Shown: positions 45,427 through 55,456 of the stretch, piece by piece
Layout of the letters: each line of letters begins with the position of its first letter
How positions within the stretch are numbered: position 1 is the stretch's first letter
DNA from: Haloplanus ruber
GTDB lineage: Archaea; Halobacteriota; Halobacteria; Halobacteriales; Haloferacaceae
Length of the DNA: 64,000 bases
Assembly: GCF_024494725.1 (NCBI RefSeq)
Contig: NZ_JANHDK010000004.1
Location: forward strand, 186,001-250,000
Direction of reading: 5' to 3'
Translations under genes and position numbers: made by a program
Notes under the pieces: generated by a model
Database searches by the model: none
Told to the model about the DNA's origin: nothing
Seen by the model: only the letters and a program-made list of their open reading frames with translations

Positions 45427-45937
45427 TGTGACCACTGACTTGTTTGATCCGATAATTACGCAATAAAAATATAACATCTTTTTGTTTAAAACTTTGGACA
45501 AGGTAATGCCTTCTCTATGTGGTTGAACACCTGCTAGAGGAGGCCGTTTGATCGACTTTTTAAGCGAGCAGCGCGGGATGCGCCCAGCCTCGTGGGCCGA
45601 ACGGACGACTTGCGCGTCGCTCGTTTAACGAAGCGAGTGCTGCAAAAAAAGTCGTAATGTGCGCGTAATTTGCCTAAAGTCCAATCTAATTGGCTTATTG
45701 TGGCAAACAGCGATCCTGCGTGCTGAATAGTTCCTCTAGGCCTTGTTTAGACGCGGTGTAGACCATCCGCTATGCCCATTGCCTCAAGGACAGGTTCGAG
45801 GTAAGAAGCACTCAGTGACGGATTGTATTCTCCCAATAGTACTACCGACCGGCGTCTTCAAGAGCGTCTAAACAATGCTGATCCTCTATATTCAGCAAGG
45901 GCGTCGTCTCAGTTGCCGAGAATTTCGACAAGACTCC
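45427..45937. other. Gene-free stretch left of a segmental duplication
   Basis: No gene supported. Repeated GCGAG/CTCGC motifs around 45560-45650 suggest secondary structure, but no known RNA was recognised. The duplicated segment starts near 45889. Confidence 0.35.
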
Positions 45938-46090
45938 CTACTCAGGAATCTCGTAGTAACAGAAGTCTGTTGCACTCCACGCTGGGTACGAGTCAATATC
46001 CAGAGAGACAGTCAGTCCACAGTAGCGACACTCAACGATGACTGTTGACTCGGTCTCAAAGAGTACTCAAGTTACCGTCCAGAGACCCAT
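45938..46090 (-). pseudogene. Decayed zinc-ribbon mini-gene (copy 1)
   Basis: Homologous to the intact gene at 50062-50217. Here a codon deletion and a TGA follow the first seven codons, and the second zinc cysteine pair is lost (CPAC becomes YPAW). It clearly derives from the duplication and cannot make the protein. Confidence 0.75.
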
Positions 46091-46247
46091 CATCTGAAAC
46101 TTAGCCCCAAGTGAATTACTTTTAGCGGCTAAGCGGAATCCACCGATAGTAGTGCGTCGTCAATACGGTTCCACACAAGGCTTACACCGGATCATTATCC
46201 TACGTCCGATTGGAAGGGACTTGTCACATGCTCTCTTCCCTCCCCTG

Positions 46248-46394
46248 ATGACCGATGATCCAACGCTTGGAAGCTGTCCGAAGTGTGGTGAGGGACTCGC
46301 TGCCGCACACGTCTTGGTCGAATACGTGAAAGACGGGGCGACTGTTCTCTGGGCAGAGTACCCGATTTGTGACAAGGTCGTGAATCCTCAGTAA
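46248..46394 (+). CDS. DUF7837-like zinc-binding mini-protein (copy 1, one Cys lost)
   Basis: 48 residues, MTDDPTLGSCPKCGEGLAAA. First knuckle CPKC is intact; the second is YPIC instead of CPIC, so zinc binding may be impaired. Same position relative to palindrome G as copy 2 has to palindrome H. Family name tentative. Confidence 0.6.
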   Translation: MTDDPTLGSCPKCGEGLAAAHVLVEYVKDGATVLWAEYPICDKVVNPQ

Positions 46395-46424
46395 CGACTC
46401 ACAGTGACAGCGATAATGTCCGTA

Positions 46425-46467
46425 GTTACCCCACGTATCCAGACTATAGTTCGATTTGTGGGTTAAC
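46425..46467. promoter_or_regulatory. Palindromic element, hybrid type (site G)
   Basis: GTTACCCCAC (46425-46434) faces GTGGGTTAAC (46458-46467), which runs on into CAACG, so one arm combines the GTTACCCCAC and TTAACCAAC forms. 30 bp downstream of the zinc-ribbon gene. Confidence 0.7.
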
Positions 46468-46671
46468 CAACGAGGGCAAGTTGGACTGAAATCAATAGGC
46501 CGACGATAGACGTCCATCTGACTGAGATATGTACCACCGATGAGAAAGCACCCTCTACGATGTCCGGAACCGCCTACGGCACCGGAGCATCCAGACGACG
46601 GAGCGGGTCTACGATCATTTCCTAGGTCTGACCTTGCGAAAACATCGATCCACTGGATAGCACCGATAAAT

Positions 46672-48856: not shown

Positions 48857-49090
48857 GCTGCAGTTCGACTCTCGATGCCGACCGTGGTATAAACCACCCT
48901 TCGACCGCGGGGACGTGCAGGCCGTCGCCGGATTTTTATATCAGACCGGGTCGATATCGGGTTACTTCTCCAGCGCCAATCGCACGTTCAGCTCTCTGAA
49001 CAGTACGAAACGGTCGGTTAGTCTGTCGATTCGTGTTGCCACCGTGCTTCGTAGCTGCGACTGGGACCGTCGTCGATGCCATCTCCGCCG

Positions 49091-49104
49091 AACGCTTATA
49101 CGAC
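49091..49104 (+). promoter_or_regulatory. TATA region of hicBA
   Basis: CGCTTATACGACC places a TATA-like TTATA about 28 bp before the ATG at 49127, consistent with leaderless transcription. Confidence 0.5.
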
Positions 49105-49126
49105 CAGTCGCACAATACTGAGTACG

Positions 49127-49396
49127 ATGGCCAGTTCGACTCAAGACGGCAACGGTCACGACGGCGAGATCCGTCTCTGGCAGGAGGGCGACTGGTGGAT
49201 CGCAAAGGACGTGGAAACGGGCGTCACGACACAGGGCGAGTCCAGGGCGGCAGCGCTAGAGAACCTCGACGACGCAGTGGCGCTGGACGACGGTCAGCAT
49301 GGCCGTTCACCGACCGACGAGGAACTCCGCGCGGCGGGAATTGATCCTGCCGACAACACTACGGGTGAGCGGGAACCGCCGGACGTCCTCGACTAA
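49127..49396 (+). CDS. hicB: HicB-like antitoxin
   Basis: ATG 49127 (MASSTQDGNGHDGEIRLWQE), 89 residues. EIRLWQEGDWWIAKDVETGV then TTQGESRAAALENLDDAVAL is the partial RNase H-like HicB fold (strand, W-x-A-x-D, then G-x-T-x-x-E-A-x-x-N-L). The C-terminus is acidic, with no DNA-binding domain seen. Three bases separate it from hicA. Confidence 0.9.
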   Translation: MASSTQDGNGHDGEIRLWQEGDWWIAKDVETGVTTQGESRAAALENLDDAVALDDGQHGRSPTDEELRAAGIDPADNTTGEREPPDVLD

Positions 49397-49399
49397 TCG

Positions 49400-49651
49400 A
49401 TGGACCGGCGAACGTTCTCTGGGATGGAGGTGGTGAAGGTGCTGGTGAACACGGGCGGGTTCGAGTGGCGTCGAACAACCGGCGACCACGCTCAGCTGTA
49501 CTACGAACACCCAACGAATGAGACCGATCGCCGACAGGTGACTATCCCACTACATGACGAACTCCGGACTGGGACGCTTCGCGACATCGCCGAGAGTGCC
49601 GGAGCAGACGATTTTGATGCGTTCTGCGAGTGGATCGACCGGAACGCCTAA
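49400..49651 (+). CDS. hicA: HicA-like mRNA interferase toxin
   Basis: 83 residues of the small double-stranded-RNA-binding-like fold: SGMEVVKVLVNTGGFEWRRT, GDHAQLYYEHP, VTIPLHDELRTGTLRDIAES. The catalytic histidine is expected in the GDH-A segment. Together with hicB it is a complete type II system in antitoxin-first order. Confidence 0.9.
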   Translation: MDRRTFSGMEVVKVLVNTGGFEWRRTTGDHAQLYYEHPTNETDRRQVTIPLHDELRTGTLRDIAESAGADDFDAFCEWIDRNA

Positions 49652-49996: not shown

Positions 49997-50061
49997 ACGA
50001 CGTATCCTTTCTATTCAGCAGAAACGTCGTCTCAGTTGCCAAGAATTTCGAGAGGCCCTCC

Positions 50062-50217
50062 CTATTCTGGAATCTCGTAGCAACAGAAGTCTGTCGCCCC
50101 GCACGCTGGACACGAGTCGATGTCCGGAGAGACGGTCAGCCCACAGTGACGGCACTCAACGATGACTGTTGAGTCGGATCCAAAAAGTACTCGAGTGAGT
50201 ACTCTTCGGAGACTCAT
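50062..50217 (-). CDS. Zinc-ribbon mini-protein (51 aa, copy 2, intact)
   Basis: ATG 50217 gives MSLRRVLTRVLFGSDSTVIV, then ECRHCGLTVSPDIDSCPACG: CxxC-(n)-CxxC zinc ribbon, followed by ATDFCCYEIPE. An amphipathic basic N-terminus precedes the ribbon. The copy at 45938 is destroyed. Divergent from the next zinc protein; role unknown. Confidence 0.75.
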   Translation of the reverse strand: MSLRRVLTRVLFGSDSTVIVECRHCGLTVSPDIDSCPACGATDFCCYEIPE

Positions 50218-50372
50218 CGTCTGAAAGTCAGCCGCAAGTGAATTAGTTGTGGCGACTGAGCGAATCCACCGACAGCGGTGCATCGTCAATACGATTCCAC
50301 ACAAGGCTTACACCCAATCATTATTTTACGTTCGATTGGAAGGGATACGTCACACGCTCCCTTCCCTCCCTA

Positions 50373-50522
50373 ATGACCGGCGATCCACCACTCGGAAGCT
50401 GTCCGAAATGTGGTGAGGGGCTCTCTGGCGGACACGTCTTGGTCGAATACGAGAAAGACGACGGGACGACTGGAATCTGGGCAGAGTGCCCGATCTGTGA
50501 CGAAGTCGTGAGTCCTCAGTAA
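50373..50522 (+). CDS. DUF7837-like zinc-binding mini-protein (copy 2, intact)
   Basis: 49 residues, MTGDPPLGSCPKCGEGLSGG ... IWAECPICDEVVSPQ with both CxxC knuckles. Such 45-50 residue proteins are frequent in haloarchaea; function unknown. It sits upstream of palindrome H and parA. Confidence 0.75.
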   Translation: MTGDPPLGSCPKCGEGLSGGHVLVEYEKDDGTTGIWAECPICDEVVSPQ

Positions 50523-50552
50523 CGACTCACAGCGACAGCGGCAATATCCGCA

Positions 50553-50595
50553 GTTACCCCACGTATTCAGACTATAGTTCGATCTGTGGGTTAAC
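50553..50595. promoter_or_regulatory. Palindromic element, hybrid type (site H)
   Basis: GTTACCCCAC (50553-50562) faces GTGGGTTAAC (50586-50595), continuing into CAACG, identical in form to site G. It lies 96 bp before parA. Confidence 0.7.
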
Positions 50596-50660
50596 CAACG
50601 AGGACAAGTTGGACTGAAATCAATAGGCCGACGACAGACGTCCGTCTGACTGAGATACAT

Positions 50661-50694
50661 GTATCACCGATATGTATACAATATCTGTATATGG
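50661..50694. promoter_or_regulatory. Candidate parA operator
   Basis: GTATCACCGATATGTATACA followed by ATATCTGTATATG overlaps the parA start. GTATACAATATC recurs at 52023-52034 downstream of the operon, so a partition protein may bind both sides. Confidence 0.55.
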
Positions 50695-51542
50695 CATCAG
50701 TGAAACGGGGAGCAACCTACGTCGAGAAGGGCGGGGTCGGGAAGACCACCAGTGCCGCCCATATCGCCGTAGCCGCCCACAACATGGGTCACGAGGTCTT
50801 GCTGATCGACCTCGCTGGCACACAGAACGACCTTGCGACACACTTCGGTATCACGATCAGTGAAGATGGAGAGACAAACGGCGTCTCTATCGATGCCCCC
50901 ATCTCAGCTGTCTTCGGTGATGATTGGGCCTTCCTCCGGGACAACATTGACGACTTGTTGGATCGGATGACGTTCTCCACCGACGAGGGGCCAGATCTTA
51001 TTCCAGCGGATCCAGGTCTTGGTGGAGCCGACAACAATCTCGCGAATGTTCCACTTGAGGAGCGCTATCAGAAACTCGATGGGTTCGTTGAGGACTTGGT
51101 CGCAGACGCATACGATCTCGTGATATTCGACCTGCCCGGTAAGGAGGACAACATCGCACTCAACGGTCTCTTCGCCGCCCGGAGTGTCGTGGCACCGTTG
51201 AAACCAGGGGCCTTCGAGCGCGACCAACTACAGAAGCTTGATGCGACGCTGGCGGAGATTAGTGCCGACCTCAATATCGACCTCGGCCTGACGCTAGTCA
51301 TTCCGACGATCATCAGTAGCCGTGAGACACTTTCGGAGTCGTTTGTCGATCACGTGAACAGCGAGTATCCAGAGATCGTCGGTGAGCCCGTAACGAAGAC
51401 TGCAGATATCGGCCAAAACCAGAATGCTGGACGGACACTCTATGCAGTCCCTGACGACGAACTCTACGCGACCGGGAAGCGGGCACGCGAGGCGTACAGC
51501 GCAAACACCGAACAGCTACTCACGCAACTCACAGATCGATGA
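50691..51542 (+). CDS. parA: ParA-type partition ATPase
   Basis: 283 residues. Deviant Walker A EKGGVGKTTSAAHIA near residue 13, switch I-like LLIDLAGTQNDLATHFG, Walker B-like DLVIFDLPGKEDN: a complete ParA/Soj/MinD-family ATPase. It moves plasmid copies in ATP-dependent cycles with a centromere-binding partner. Its stop overlaps the next start (ATGA at 51539), so the partner is co-translated. Repeat-rich flanks on both sides support an autoregulated partition locus. Confidence 0.92.
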   Translation: MASVKRGATYVEKGGVGKTTSAAHIAVAAHNMGHEVLLIDLAGTQNDLATHFGITISEDGETNGVSIDAPISAVFGDDWAFLRDNIDDLLDRMTFSTDEGPDLIPADPGLGGADNNLANVPLEERYQKLDGFVEDLVADAYDLVIFDLPGKEDNIALNGLFAARSVVAPLKPGAFERDQLQKLDATLAEISADLNIDLGLTLVIPTIISSRETLSESFVDHVNSEYPEIVGEPVTKTADIGQNQNAGRTLYAVPDDELYATGKRAREAYSANTEQLLTQLTDR

Positions 51543-51955
51543 CCGACAATACAGAAGAGCGCGACCCTGAAGCACTGCTTGAGCAGTCGAAAGAACAGAA
51601 ACGCCACCTGAGCGAGGCGCAAGAACAAGTGACTGATGACGATGAGCCACCATTAGAGGAGTACATCGCAGAGGTCTATGAGGAACTCGAAGCCGGCGAG
51701 GTACCGACGAACCTCACAATGCGGGACCAGAATCTCGCAGCGCTAATTCGCGGCCTTGACGAGGCAGGCCAACTCGATCCAGTTGGCGCTGATATTCGAG
51801 ACCATCTCGACCGAGATGAGGCCGACTCAGAAAGCCGCGGTTCACTGCTTGGGCTGCTCGTTCGTGCTGGCTTAGCAGAAGTCCGTCCGGATCTTATTGA
51901 GGCCGGCGAGTCAGGCTATGAAACATATACTGAGCGGCAAGAAACGCAGTTTTAG
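51539..51955 (+). CDS. ParA partner, probable centromere-binding protein
   Basis: 138 residues, acidic. Helical N-terminus (LLEQSKEQKRHLSEAQEQVT) and a C-terminal helical domain (LTMRDQNLAALIRGLDEAGQ, SLLGLLVRAGLAEVRPDLIE) that may be a DNA-binding fold. No ParB or ribbon-helix-helix signature is seen; role is inferred from coupling to parA and from the repeats that follow. Confidence 0.7.
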   Translation: MTDNTEERDPEALLEQSKEQKRHLSEAQEQVTDDDEPPLEEYIAEVYEELEAGEVPTNLTMRDQNLAALIRGLDEAGQLDPVGADIRDHLDRDEADSESRGSLLGLLVRAGLAEVRPDLIEAGESGYETYTERQETQF

Positions 51956-51970
51956 CTGTCTACTATTTCC

Positions 51971-52037
51971 GTATCTCATATCTAGATGACGTATCTGGAT
52001 CCAGTATCTGTATCTAGTATCTGTATACAATATCCAG
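51971..52037. repeat. Candidate centromere: clustered GTATCTN repeats
   Basis: GTATCT/GTATAC units begin at 51971, 51991, 52004, 52010, 52017 and 52023, the last four only 6-7 bp apart. The cluster follows the parA partner by 15 bp. GTATACAATATC also occurs upstream of parA. Confidence 0.65.
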
Positions 52038-52123
52038 ATTCATGATCGGCGATTCGACTAAGAGCAAAAACAAAGAGACTGCGATAATTCGAACCCAGAG
52101 CCGAAGCGGGCGGTAAGGAACCG

Positions 52124-52501
52124 ATGGAGAGAAATCGGCACTACCGTGCGCTTGTCCTCTCACTCGGATTGGAGCAGGTCCAAGAAATGGGTGCCGATGA
52201 CATCCTCAGCGACGTGCCTATCTCCGAGGCCCGGAAGCGGGTGGCACTAGAGCGTACCCAGAACAACGGCGTCCCGATCTTCGCACACACCGAGGAGTGC
52301 AATATGGAATCCGTTACCTCAAACTGCGGCTCTGTAGTAGACGAGCACGGCTATTCTTTTTCGGCGGGCCAGACTTTCTCTGCAGTGGCGAAAATTCGGT
52401 GTGGAGCACTCAAATTATCTGTCTCACTAGTTGGAATGGCCACTTCGAATTCAACACAGGGTTCCTCTTCATCCTCAATTTGCTCGCTCAGTATCCGATA
52501 G
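52124..52501 (+). CDS. Doubtful open frame; only N-terminal part looks coding
   Basis: ATG 52124, MERNRHYRALVLSLGLEQVQ, MGADDILSDVPISEARKRVA looks protein-like for about 60 residues. The rest overlaps antisense to the gene at 52351-52880 and becomes serine-rich. Probably a truncated gene. Confidence 0.25.
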   Translation: MERNRHYRALVLSLGLEQVQEMGADDILSDVPISEARKRVALERTQNNGVPIFAHTEECNMESVTSNCGSVVDEHGYSFSAGQTFSAVAKIRCGALKLSVSLVGMATSNSTQGSSSSSICSLSIR

Positions 52502-52880
52502 CCGACGTCACGAAAAGACAAATCAGAACTCAAGAAGGCTCGTGCAGATGCTTTGATCCTCTCTTCATTTGGACCATGTGCCGTGTATATCGCGTGATAT
52601 CTAAATCGTTTTCTGGATCGGGAGATGTTTCTGCCCGTTCTTTAGCAACTGCCCGTGTTATCTTAGCGTCTGGAACGGTGTATCCGTCCTGTGTTTTCAT
52701 ACTAAGCCCAACCCCGAGGTCGCTCTTTGTCACCGCAGCAGCTTCTGATAATCGGATTTTAGCGGCTTGATCTAATAGATCCACGCTTCTGATATTATCG
52801 TCCAATTCGTCGAGGAACTCATCCAAGTCAAAAAATGGATCTCCCTCTCTTTCATAAGGTATCCACAGTTCAATCTCCAT
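52351..52880 (-). pseudogene. Frameshifted gene of unknown family beside the PEP-swivel protein
   Basis: ATG 52880 gives MEIELWIPYEREGDPFFDLD, ... AKERAETSPDPENDL. A one-base frame change near 52608 lets it continue RYHAIYTAHGPNEERIKASA, RAFLSSDLSFRDVGYRILSE to a stop at 52351, about 175 residues. Without the shift the frame ends in an unrelated tail at 52530. Both parts are acidic and coding-like. It starts 31 bp after the end of the swivel-domain gene, so one operon. Function unknown; mutation, sequencing error or recoding cannot be told apart here. Confidence 0.55.
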
Positions 52881-52911
52881 GATCTAGCCACTCCCGACGT
52901 GCAGTTATGAT

Positions 52912-53337
52912 TTAGCTGGTTTCTTGATCATGTATTAGAACCCATTGGGCATTACAATCAACAGTAAGCACATCTCCGGTGCTGACCTTTGATTGGATAT
53001 CCGGGCAATCAATCACAGCAGGAATCTCTAGCTGCCGGGCATAGGTAGAACCACGGCCTGTAAGACGTTCCTCGCCATAGACCACGAATCCATCAGCATC
53101 GTCTACCCATTCACACATAGCAGGCAGTAGATCTGGCATCACGACGATATCTCCCTCTTGGATATTCTCAACTCCGTGAATATGCTCGAAACGTAGTCGG
53201 TCACCTTCCGGTAGATCTACCTCGACACAGTGGGCGTATCCGGTTGCTCGTCCTGTACTGGCGCTAGTCCCATTGATGATGGATGCACCTGTATAATGGA
53301 ACCCTTCAGCCATCTTACGAGGTTTGTCTCCTACCAT
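52912..53337 (-). CDS. Stand-alone PEP-utilizing (swivel) domain protein lacking the catalytic His
   Basis: ATG 53337, 141 residues. NGTSASTGRATGYAHCVEVD, GDIVVMPDLLPAMCEWVDDA, DGFVVYGEERLTGRGSTYAR, QLEIPAVIDCPDIQSKVSTG, DVLTVDCNAQWVLI follow the PEP-utilizer mobile domain from end to end. Where the family has GG-TSHAA with a phosphorylated histidine, this protein has GRGSTYAR, so phosphotransfer by the usual route is unlikely. No PEP- or ATP-binding domain is nearby. It may be a repurposed swivel domain paired with the downstream unknown protein. Confidence 0.75.
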   Translation of the reverse strand: MVGDKPRKMAEGFHYTGASIINGTSASTGRATGYAHCVEVDLPEGDRLRFEHIHGVENIQEGDIVVMPDLLPAMCEWVDDADGFVVYGEERLTGRGSTYARQLEIPAVIDCPDIQSKVSTGDVLTVDCNAQWVLIHDQETS

Positions 53338-54002
53338 TGTCAATCTTAATCAGAAGTTGGAATACTGAGTTTGCCTGCCGCGACGCGACCGACACGCGTG
53401 TTCGAGCTGCAACCCAGCTCGAGCTTGGCCGACGGGATTGAATTCCCGCAGTCTAGGTGAGACCGCCGCTCCAAATTTGTATATCGATATGTAATTCATC
53501 CCCGTCGTGGCTGTCGCTATCGACTGCCGTCTGCAGGGTGGTTTCGTGGGCGTGGCCCCCACAGAGAGACCACGGAGACAGGGCCGAAAAGGAGTATTTC
53601 GGGGTTGCGCAGCGAATCAGAGCGTTAGACCACGGATTCGATTTTGGGTCCAGATTCGAAAATAAGCCTACTAATCATCGAATCTGTACCCACTAATTCA
53701 GAACAGAAATCAGCAGACACTGTCGGGCCCAATACTAATCTGTGAGTCTGCTTCCACAGTCTAGCAAAAATCACCGCTTTTTCCTCTCGGAAAATGTGAT
53801 AGGTTATACCCAGAGGCTGTCTCATCGGGGCCGAAGTTCAACAGAGTTCCAACCCCAACAGACGAATCCACACACCGATTTTCCGGGAGTTCGAGTCGTT
53901 CAGTTCGGACTCTGTCTTCTCAACGATTACCCGTTGTTCCCCAGGATCCATACTCTATCACTTCCAAGCCTTGCGTATGCCGAGTCCCGAATTCTCGAAC
54001 GA
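53338..54002. other. Stretch without convincing genes
   Basis: Direct G/C-rich and A/T-rich patches alternate. Possible insertion-sequence scars, e.g. GGGATTGAATTCCCG at 53434-53448 (inverted repeat). No gene supported. Confidence 0.3.
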
Positions 54003-54196: not shown

Positions 54197-55456
54197 TCAC
54201 TGGTCGGCAGAACGGGAGTCCACCGACAAGCCCACCGCTTCAGCAGTGGGTAGCTGACTTCCTGTGGTTGTACGGGATGCTGACAGAGACATTTCAATGG
54301 CGAGCCAGTACGTGGCGATCATTAGTGCTACCAACGATTGTCTGCTCACCTGATACGTACTTGACCACGGGTCGATGACGAAACCGTTTGACCGCAATGC
54401 AAGGCCAAACCAAGCTAGGAGCAGTGTTCCGAAGACGAAGAAAGAGAATGCTGCGACAGGTTTTGAGCGTTTCAGCACATCTGAAGGATAGATTCCAATC
54501 CTGCTATCCCACCATTTTGCGATTGGTGTTGAGAGTCTCTCCACAATCCCGTCAACAGCCGTTGACCAGGCAATCCACAACGGTTTGACGACGTTCAGAG
54601 TTGCTTTGTGCCGAGTCGCGTCGTCATCACAATAACGGGTGATTTTCTCCTGGAGCCATTCCTCGTCATCTCGGTATCGGGGGTGTTTGTTGACCCGCGT
54701 CTGTGGTGTCCACGTATCAACAGTGATCAATGCCGACTGAGCATCTGGGCGCAGCCCGGTGTAGCCCGGTGGATTCTCTCGAAGTTCAAACTCGTCTTTT
54801 GGGGCGGTACCACGAACCCTTGCCAGCTCTCTTGAGGCGCGGCATGCTGTTTTTTTTACGTAGTGCTCTTTCGTTTTCTCGTCCAACCACCCGAATATGG
54901 TATCAAGTGCTGGCCCGCGTACGCCTGCCCAAGCATAGTGCGTGGCTGCTGTCGCCCTCAGCATGTGTGGGTACGTCGACGAAGCATCAACTCCGTCGGT
55001 CAACTCTGCCACCTTTTTTAATCGCCTCAACACCGTTGAGTACGAAATGGTCGTGTAGGGTACTATTCTAAAGTACAGTTCTATTATCTGCCGAGCCCGC
55101 TCTGTCTGGATTGGTACATGCCGGTGGCCGCCTTTCGGCCTCCAATATTCGTCAAGCGCCTCCTCGGAGGTCATATCCTCGTTGTTCTCAGCTAACTTAT
55201 CGGCGTAGTGCCGACACAGACCGCATTCGCAATCCAGATGCTCAGGTATGATTATCACGGAACGATCAGCGTGATACCAGTCTTCGGTCATGTGGATAAC
55301 CTCCCCCACACGCAGCCCGACGCGACCGAGCATCAGGAGAAGAAAAAATATCGTGAGACTTTCCTCACGATTCTCGATCTTGGCGGCTGTTTTGAGAAGG
55401 TCCCGGTATCGTTTCAACGTGATAACATCAGAGAGACTCGTCCGGCGCTCGCCCAT
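54197..55456 (-). CDS. Tyrosine recombinase with predicted C-terminal membrane segments
   Basis: 419 residues. Active-site R49 (GLRVGEVIHM), K108 candidate (RPKGGHRHVPI), H164 and R167 (PHMLRATAATHYAWAG), W190 and Y199 (FGWLDEKTKEHYVK). A CECGLCRHY cluster at 76-84 may bind zinc. After about residue 285 the chain has two strongly hydrophobic segments (333-353, PVAAFSFFVFGTLLLAWFGL; 373-390, SLVALMIATYWLAIEM), not part of the catalytic fold. Either a membrane-tethered recombinase or a fusion. No N-terminal core-binding domain is seen. No attachment site recognised. Confidence 0.82.
   Translation of the reverse strand: MGERRTSLSDVITLKRYRDLLKTAAKIENREESLTIFFLLLMLGRVGLRVGEVIHMTEDWYHADRSVIIIPEHLDCECGLCRHYADKLAENNEDMTSEEALDEYWRPKGGHRHVPIQTERARQIIELYFRIVPYTTISYSTVLRRLKKVAELTDGVDASSTYPHMLRATAATHYAWAGVRGPALDTIFGWLDEKTKEHYVKKTACRASRELARVRGTAPKDEFELRENPPGYTGLRPDAQSALITVDTWTPQTRVNKHPRYRDDEEWLQEKITRYCDDDATRHKATLNVVKPLWIAWSTAVDGIVERLSTPIAKWWDSRIGIYPSDVLKRSKPVAAFSFFVFGTLLLAWFGLALRSNGFVIDPWSSTYQVSRQSLVALMIATYWLAIEMSLSASRTTTGSQLPTAEAVGLSVDSRSADQ

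Follow-up and report, generated by a model that had tools for sequence, protein, structure and literature searches.

The swivel domains known from metabolic enzymes move and carry phosphate; in enzyme I (PtsI) and PEP synthase (PpsA), the phosphohistidine belongs to a TSH motif. The C-terminal PEPut/ECTD swivel of pyruvate kinase has the same fold and is regulatory rather than phosphotransferring. It autoinhibits the enzyme and acts independently of the histidine in B. subtilis growth tests, an H539A substitution being harmless, and the corresponding swivel of S. aureus pyruvate kinase is naturally without the histidine (PMC11834443). A different study reports TSH-dependent effects of the pyruvate kinase swivel on replication (PMC9009071). 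The N-terminal swivel of actinobacterial SteA also lacks the histidine and is part of a two-protein regulator of a cell-wall hydrolase (PMC12977500). In aconitase X (AcnX), the swivel is a stand-alone archaeal small subunit, and its partner, the large catalytic subunit, is encoded separately.

The protein described here, encoded in a 64,000-nucleotide stretch of a Haloplanus ruber contig (the window), can be compared with each of these systems. It is nearest by sequence to the enzyme I and PEP synthase swivels, which belong to the same PF00391 family, but it and its accessory relatives have Arg, Val, or Ala in place of the His and no PEP-binding or ATP-grasp domain. Its best structural match is the pyruvate kinase swivel (2e28, 3t05; Z 17.4), of which the haloarchaeal version is also His-less (TSY, L033). 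That swivel is fused to its enzyme, whereas the Haloplanus swivel is free and shares its accessory DNA with a partner gene. The SteA domain (9hmz, 9hmy) is a more distant structural match (Z 9.4), and a sequence relationship to it was not found. SteA additionally has a dimerization domain, a membrane helix, and a SteB partner, none of which was recognized here, the 143 residues holding one swivel and the partner matching no family. The AcnX swivel (7cnr, 2hi6) likewise stands alone but belongs to a different sequence family. A swivel that is free, His-less, and kept by selection on accessory DNA would neatly exemplify the conversion of a catalytic domain into a protein-binding module. Being small and expressible, the protein also lends itself to tests of the disputed role of His-less swivels in pyruvate kinase and SteA.

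A free swivel domain without its phosphohistidine

The swivel gene (Table 1), whose open frame extends to a TTG at 53343, encodes 141-143 residues that form a single PF00391 domain (E = 4.9e-12; 45.7 bits against a Pfam cut-off of 23.1). No other Pfam domain scores above its own cut-off in this protein, and the same search places no PEP-binding or nucleotide-binding domain within the 143 residues. These results bear out the sequence-only reading of a complete swivel domain that stands as a free protein of ~143 residues. Its relatives match PF00391 at 33-43 bits, and a profile of the family recovers PEP synthases and enzyme I from the PDB (best E = 3.6e-9).

Table 1 Features of the swivel locus, in window coordinates
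Feature	Position	Strand	Basis or remark
His-less stand-alone PEP-swivel protein	52912..53337	-	start ATG at 53337; PF00391
Arg97 codon, at the phosphohistidine position of enzyme I / PEP synthase (TSH -> TGR)	53053..53055	-	alignments
Partner ORF1, 116 aa	52530..52880	-	residues 1-99 coding-like (acidic), last 17 not
Conserved C-terminal part of partner, -1 frame (ARAFLSSDL...VAIPTSETDNLSAPHRIFATAEK)	52351..52581	-	matches L011, L012
Interval of the -1 reading-frame switch	52575..52610	-	charge and frame profile; heptamer scan
TTGA overlap: ORF1 stop TGA and possible TTG start of the conserved frame	52530..52533	-	
Short repeat of many Haloplanus genomes	54203..54262	+	repeated matches; ~0.85 kb upstream of the swivel gene

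An AF2 model computed from an alignment of 30 swivels (pLDDT 80.9) adopts the swivelling beta/beta/alpha fold, with Z scores of 13-17 against enzyme I, PPDK, RPH, and Pyk swivels. The best matches (Z 16-17) are the swivels of pyruvate kinase, rifampin phosphotransferase, and enzyme I, with that of Bacillus pyruvate kinase at the top. The model supports the swivel fold but also depends on it, because most rows of the alignment are canonical enzymes, including enzyme I and PEP synthase, that steer the prediction. It supersedes an earlier, poor model from the five accessory sequences (pLDDT 58), for which S. aureus pyruvate kinase, rifampin phosphotransferase, and enzyme I were among the best, non-significant, matches.

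Where canonical swivels read GG-x-T-S-H-A-A-I-V-S-R-E-L-G-I-P, the window protein has E-R-L-T-G-R-G-S-T-Y-A-R-Q-L-E-I-P, and HMMER aligns 'deerltgrGavyARqleiP' with 'deGGrTSHaAivsRelgiP'. Within T95-G96-R97-G98 (numbered from the TTG at 53343), Thr is unchanged, Ser has become Gly, and His has become Arg. The sequence-only reading had correctly recognized the loss of the phosphohistidine but had put Tyr in its place, an assignment that is ruled out by three alignments: these set Arg97 at the His position and Tyr101 opposite the canonical Ile/Val, four residues beyond. Nor is Tyr the replacement in the relatives, none of which has the normal His. Arg occupies the position in three of the five accessory proteins (window, L011, and L012), Val in L013, and Ala in L014. 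In the 30-sequence alignment, the Ser-His pair is accordingly Gly-Arg, Gly-Val, or Asp-Ala in all five, while the GxxxSxG motif, the Thr of TSH, and the RxxxIP segment are retained. Ordinary TSH swivels also occur in Haloplanus, in PtsI. A haloarchaeal pyruvate kinase (L033:2519-4309, minus strand) has a C-terminal swivel in which the catalytic His is Tyr (TSYAA), as does a second Haloplanus genome (L035). This independent His-less swivel in the genus means that, among haloarchaea, the accessory family is not alone in having lost the His.

The retained Thr raises the question of whether phosphorylation on Thr95 might serve as a regulated switch. All 30 aligned swivels have this residue, the His-less ones included, and in PEP synthase and PPDK it is the site on which DUF299 kinases act (PMC9009071). 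A gene for DUF299 (PF03618) is absent from the genome, however, in a search whose control finds those of E. coli, B. subtilis, and others, so a kinase of this type acting on Thr95 was rejected. Since the known kinase family is missing and the Thr may be structural, such a switch is distinctly unlikely.

Distribution and selection

Accessory swivels were found in five of 12 Haloplanus genomes and nowhere else in a search that covered 170 genomes from the family, 392 from the order, and 391 from the class, and in which at most 10 candidates per genome were scored by profile. The four relatives of the window swivel comprise two close (L011 and L012, each 64% identical in protein) and two distant (L013 and L014) ones. 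Searches of GTDB contigs, IMG/VR, and phage and plasmid records with short peptide patterns, which may miss relatives, recognized no stand-alone relative except a copy on the Haloplanus rubicundus plasmid NZ_CP031147, annotated as 'PEP-utilizing enzyme'. The other plasmid matches, among the matches listed, are mostly annotated as PEP synthase or PEP-utilising genes.

The His-less swivel domain is under purifying selection. Between L011 and L012, dN is 0.079 and dS 0.668, and the resulting ratio of 0.117 makes the swivel the most constrained of the three genes in the operon (the partner has a ratio of 0.222 and a winged-helix-like gene one of 0.317). In comparisons of the window swivel with either relative, 64% of the protein is identical and synonymous sites are saturated. 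The ratio of 0.117 indicates a maintained protein and not debris. A decaying PEP-enzyme fragment or chance remnant on mobile DNA would suit the low-GC accessory region beside repeat/IS ends and an integrase, as well as the broken partner, but is very unlikely in light of this ratio, the 64% identity retained at synonymous saturation, and an open frame that is intact in five genomes with the His gone from every one.

The partner gene and its frame switch

The neighboring partner matches no Pfam or NCBIfam family, and its homology is limited to the last ~75 residues, which lie in the -1 frame relative to the 116-residue ORF1. This C-terminal stretch is 36% identical to the L011 partner over 75 residues (E = 4e-12) and 40% identical to that of L012 over 58; a whole-genome search with it gave a match at E = 1.4e-6. 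The 99 plausible residues of ORF1 have no relatives in our searches. An apparent similarity of ORF1 to the partner N-terminus in L012 and an apparent internal repeat of the partner, both seen by eye, were rejected when shuffled sequences scored equally high. Both frames of the 175-residue partner described from sequence alone are therefore present, but because the 99 residues match nothing, the frames need not ever have formed a single gene.

Haloarchaeal proteins are acidic, and charge marks where the coding frame changes. ORF1 contains 24 D/E and 11 K/R up to residue 99, then one acidic residue and seven K/R/H in its last 17; it is acidic through the codon at 52586-52584 and basic beyond. 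In the -1 frame the residues are basic as far as about 52605 and acidic from there on. These opposite changes locate the switch at ~52610-52575, confirming a two-frame partner and shifting the break, formerly put near 52608, closer to 52585.

Mutation and recoding had both been proposed for this break. Programmed frameshifting that joins the two frames is extremely improbable, even though the charge profiles of the frames change over sharply at a single point and the downstream frame shows conservation. The site contains neither a slippery heptamer, by a heptamer scan, nor a long homopolymer; the full-length L012 gene passes the corresponding place in one uninterrupted frame; and, with the unique part of ORF1 lacking a homologue, even an ancestral joined product is hypothetical. 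The unbroken L012 gene and the missing slippery site make mutation, assembly error, or separate frames likelier than recoding, and a one-base mutation or assembly error is the simplest account. ORF1 and the conserved frame may instead be two adjacent or recombined genes, since the unique part of ORF1 has no relatives and the shuffling test leaves no similarity to L012. The TTGA overlap could permit re-initiation into the conserved C-terminal frame, and short overlaps occur in the L011 and L012 operons as well; by itself the overlap is weak evidence, because three of four random TGA stops show such an NTGA.

In L011 and L012, the partner, the swivel, and a gene of ~95-100 residues follow one another in a tight operon (overlaps of 7 and 4 bases). 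Judged by eye, the third gene looks like a winged-helix protein; its Pfam match, to DUF3116, is weak. It is linked to the swivel at these two loci and absent from the window over the 46-60 kb compared, where the order is inverted, with the swivel followed after 31 bases by the partner. The partner C-terminal domain occurs at three of the five loci, all in Haloplanus; L013 and L014 have other neighbors. Given these neighbors and the inverted order, a broadly conserved pair is not supported. In L011, moreover, the 5' part of the partner has been replaced by a TnpB-like remnant, as read from the frames. With one partner disrupted in the window and another truncated beside this remnant, the swivel may not need its partner. 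A different two-gene arrangement is seen at L014:4652-6512 (+), where the gene for a 293-residue protein overlaps that for a 328-residue fusion of an N-terminal part (~200 residues) to the His-less (Ala) swivel.

The possibility that swivel and partner together make a two-subunit enzyme in which the swivel is the small subunit, as in aconitase X / phosphomevalonate dehydratase, gains some interest from the match of stand-alone archaeal swivel subunits to the AF2 model (7cnr_D, Z 11.9; 2hi6, Z 10.8). We regard it as decidedly improbable: the conserved part of the partner spans only ~75-130 residues and matches no enzyme family, the partner is damaged at two of three loci, and the swivel sequence resembles PF00391, not the aconitase X swivel family.

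Proposed role of the swivel protein

On balance, the non-phosphorylatable swivel is probably a protein-binding regulatory module carried on Haloplanus accessory DNA and kept by selection. A binding role rather than chemistry is probable because the phosphate-carrying histidine is lost: without it phosphate would not be relayed, and a swivel with no domains attached would make no conventional enzyme. The swivel might instead dock on its partner, a host protein, or both, and control them, in the manner of the His-less swivels of SteA and pyruvate kinase, with the partner, the host PEP enzymes, and functions of the element as candidate targets. This docking reading draws on five sequences from one genus, with the partner linked at three loci. 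The original suggestion of an altered swivel that stands free beside a partner and may be a structural or signalling module thus holds, given four of four relatives without the His and the partner domain at three of five loci. In the window, where the partner frame is broken, the swivel-partner complex is probably lost for that reason, or would be made only via re-initiation at the TTGA overlap.

The targets could also lie wholly in the host, the swivel acting as a decoy or inhibitor that imitates the mobile domain found in PEP synthase, enzyme I, or pyruvate kinase, docks on the catalytic or HPr-binding domains of these enzymes, and blocks them, thereby tuning host carbon metabolism. The host genome encodes all three enzymes, each with a swivel, the accessory family is closest to those of enzyme I and PEP synthase, and the Thr of the motif is retained. 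Such a decoy is nevertheless unlikely: identity to the host swivels is ~30%, the contact is purely putative, and the dedicated partner and winged-helix genes are left unexplained. An extension of the preferred binding role, which we consider rather doubtful, is that a free pseudo-phosphohistidine protein, a dedicated partner, and a winged-helix regulator make up a haloarchaeal mobile-element operon for a new regulatory complex that reads or interferes with host PEP/pyruvate metabolism or element replication.

Genomic setting

The swivel segment lies in an accessory region of low GC content (about 0.48-0.55, versus 0.61-0.65 outside) that carries a ParA gene, an integrase, and repeat/IS ends. 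The short repeat upstream of the swivel gene is one we presume to be the end of an IS200/IS605-type element. Among the relatives, L013 is on a plasmid, L012 beside an integrase, and L011 near a TnpB gene. The low-GC, integrase, IS, and plasmid context suggests that the swivel DNA is mobile. For the G070 element, integration at tRNA-Val was considered, and no duplicated tRNA end was present in the stretch read. The defence role suggested earlier found no backing in PADLOC, which returned no match for the swivel, the partner, or the tested neighbors.

Several other features of the region are recorded here. At 49076-49651 (+), a DUF7387 gene immediately precedes a gene of the HicA toxin family (PF07927, E = 4.5e-12); the two probably form a toxin-antitoxin pair of HicAB type. 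A ParA ATPase gene and a small overlapping downstream gene (50691-51955) have GTATCTGTATC-like direct repeats on both sides (50663-50701 and 51977-52050), and the whole looks like a plasmid partition cassette with centromere/operator repeats. A DUF7837 zinc-ribbon-like ORF segment at 50005-50672 is found at 84-87% identity in several Haloplanus genomes and has a second copy in the window at 45881-46541. Finally, the plausible part of an ORF at 52124-52310 (+; MERNRHYRALVLSLGLEQ...) seems to stop where the swivel/partner segment starts, and this ORF may have been cut by insertion of that segment.
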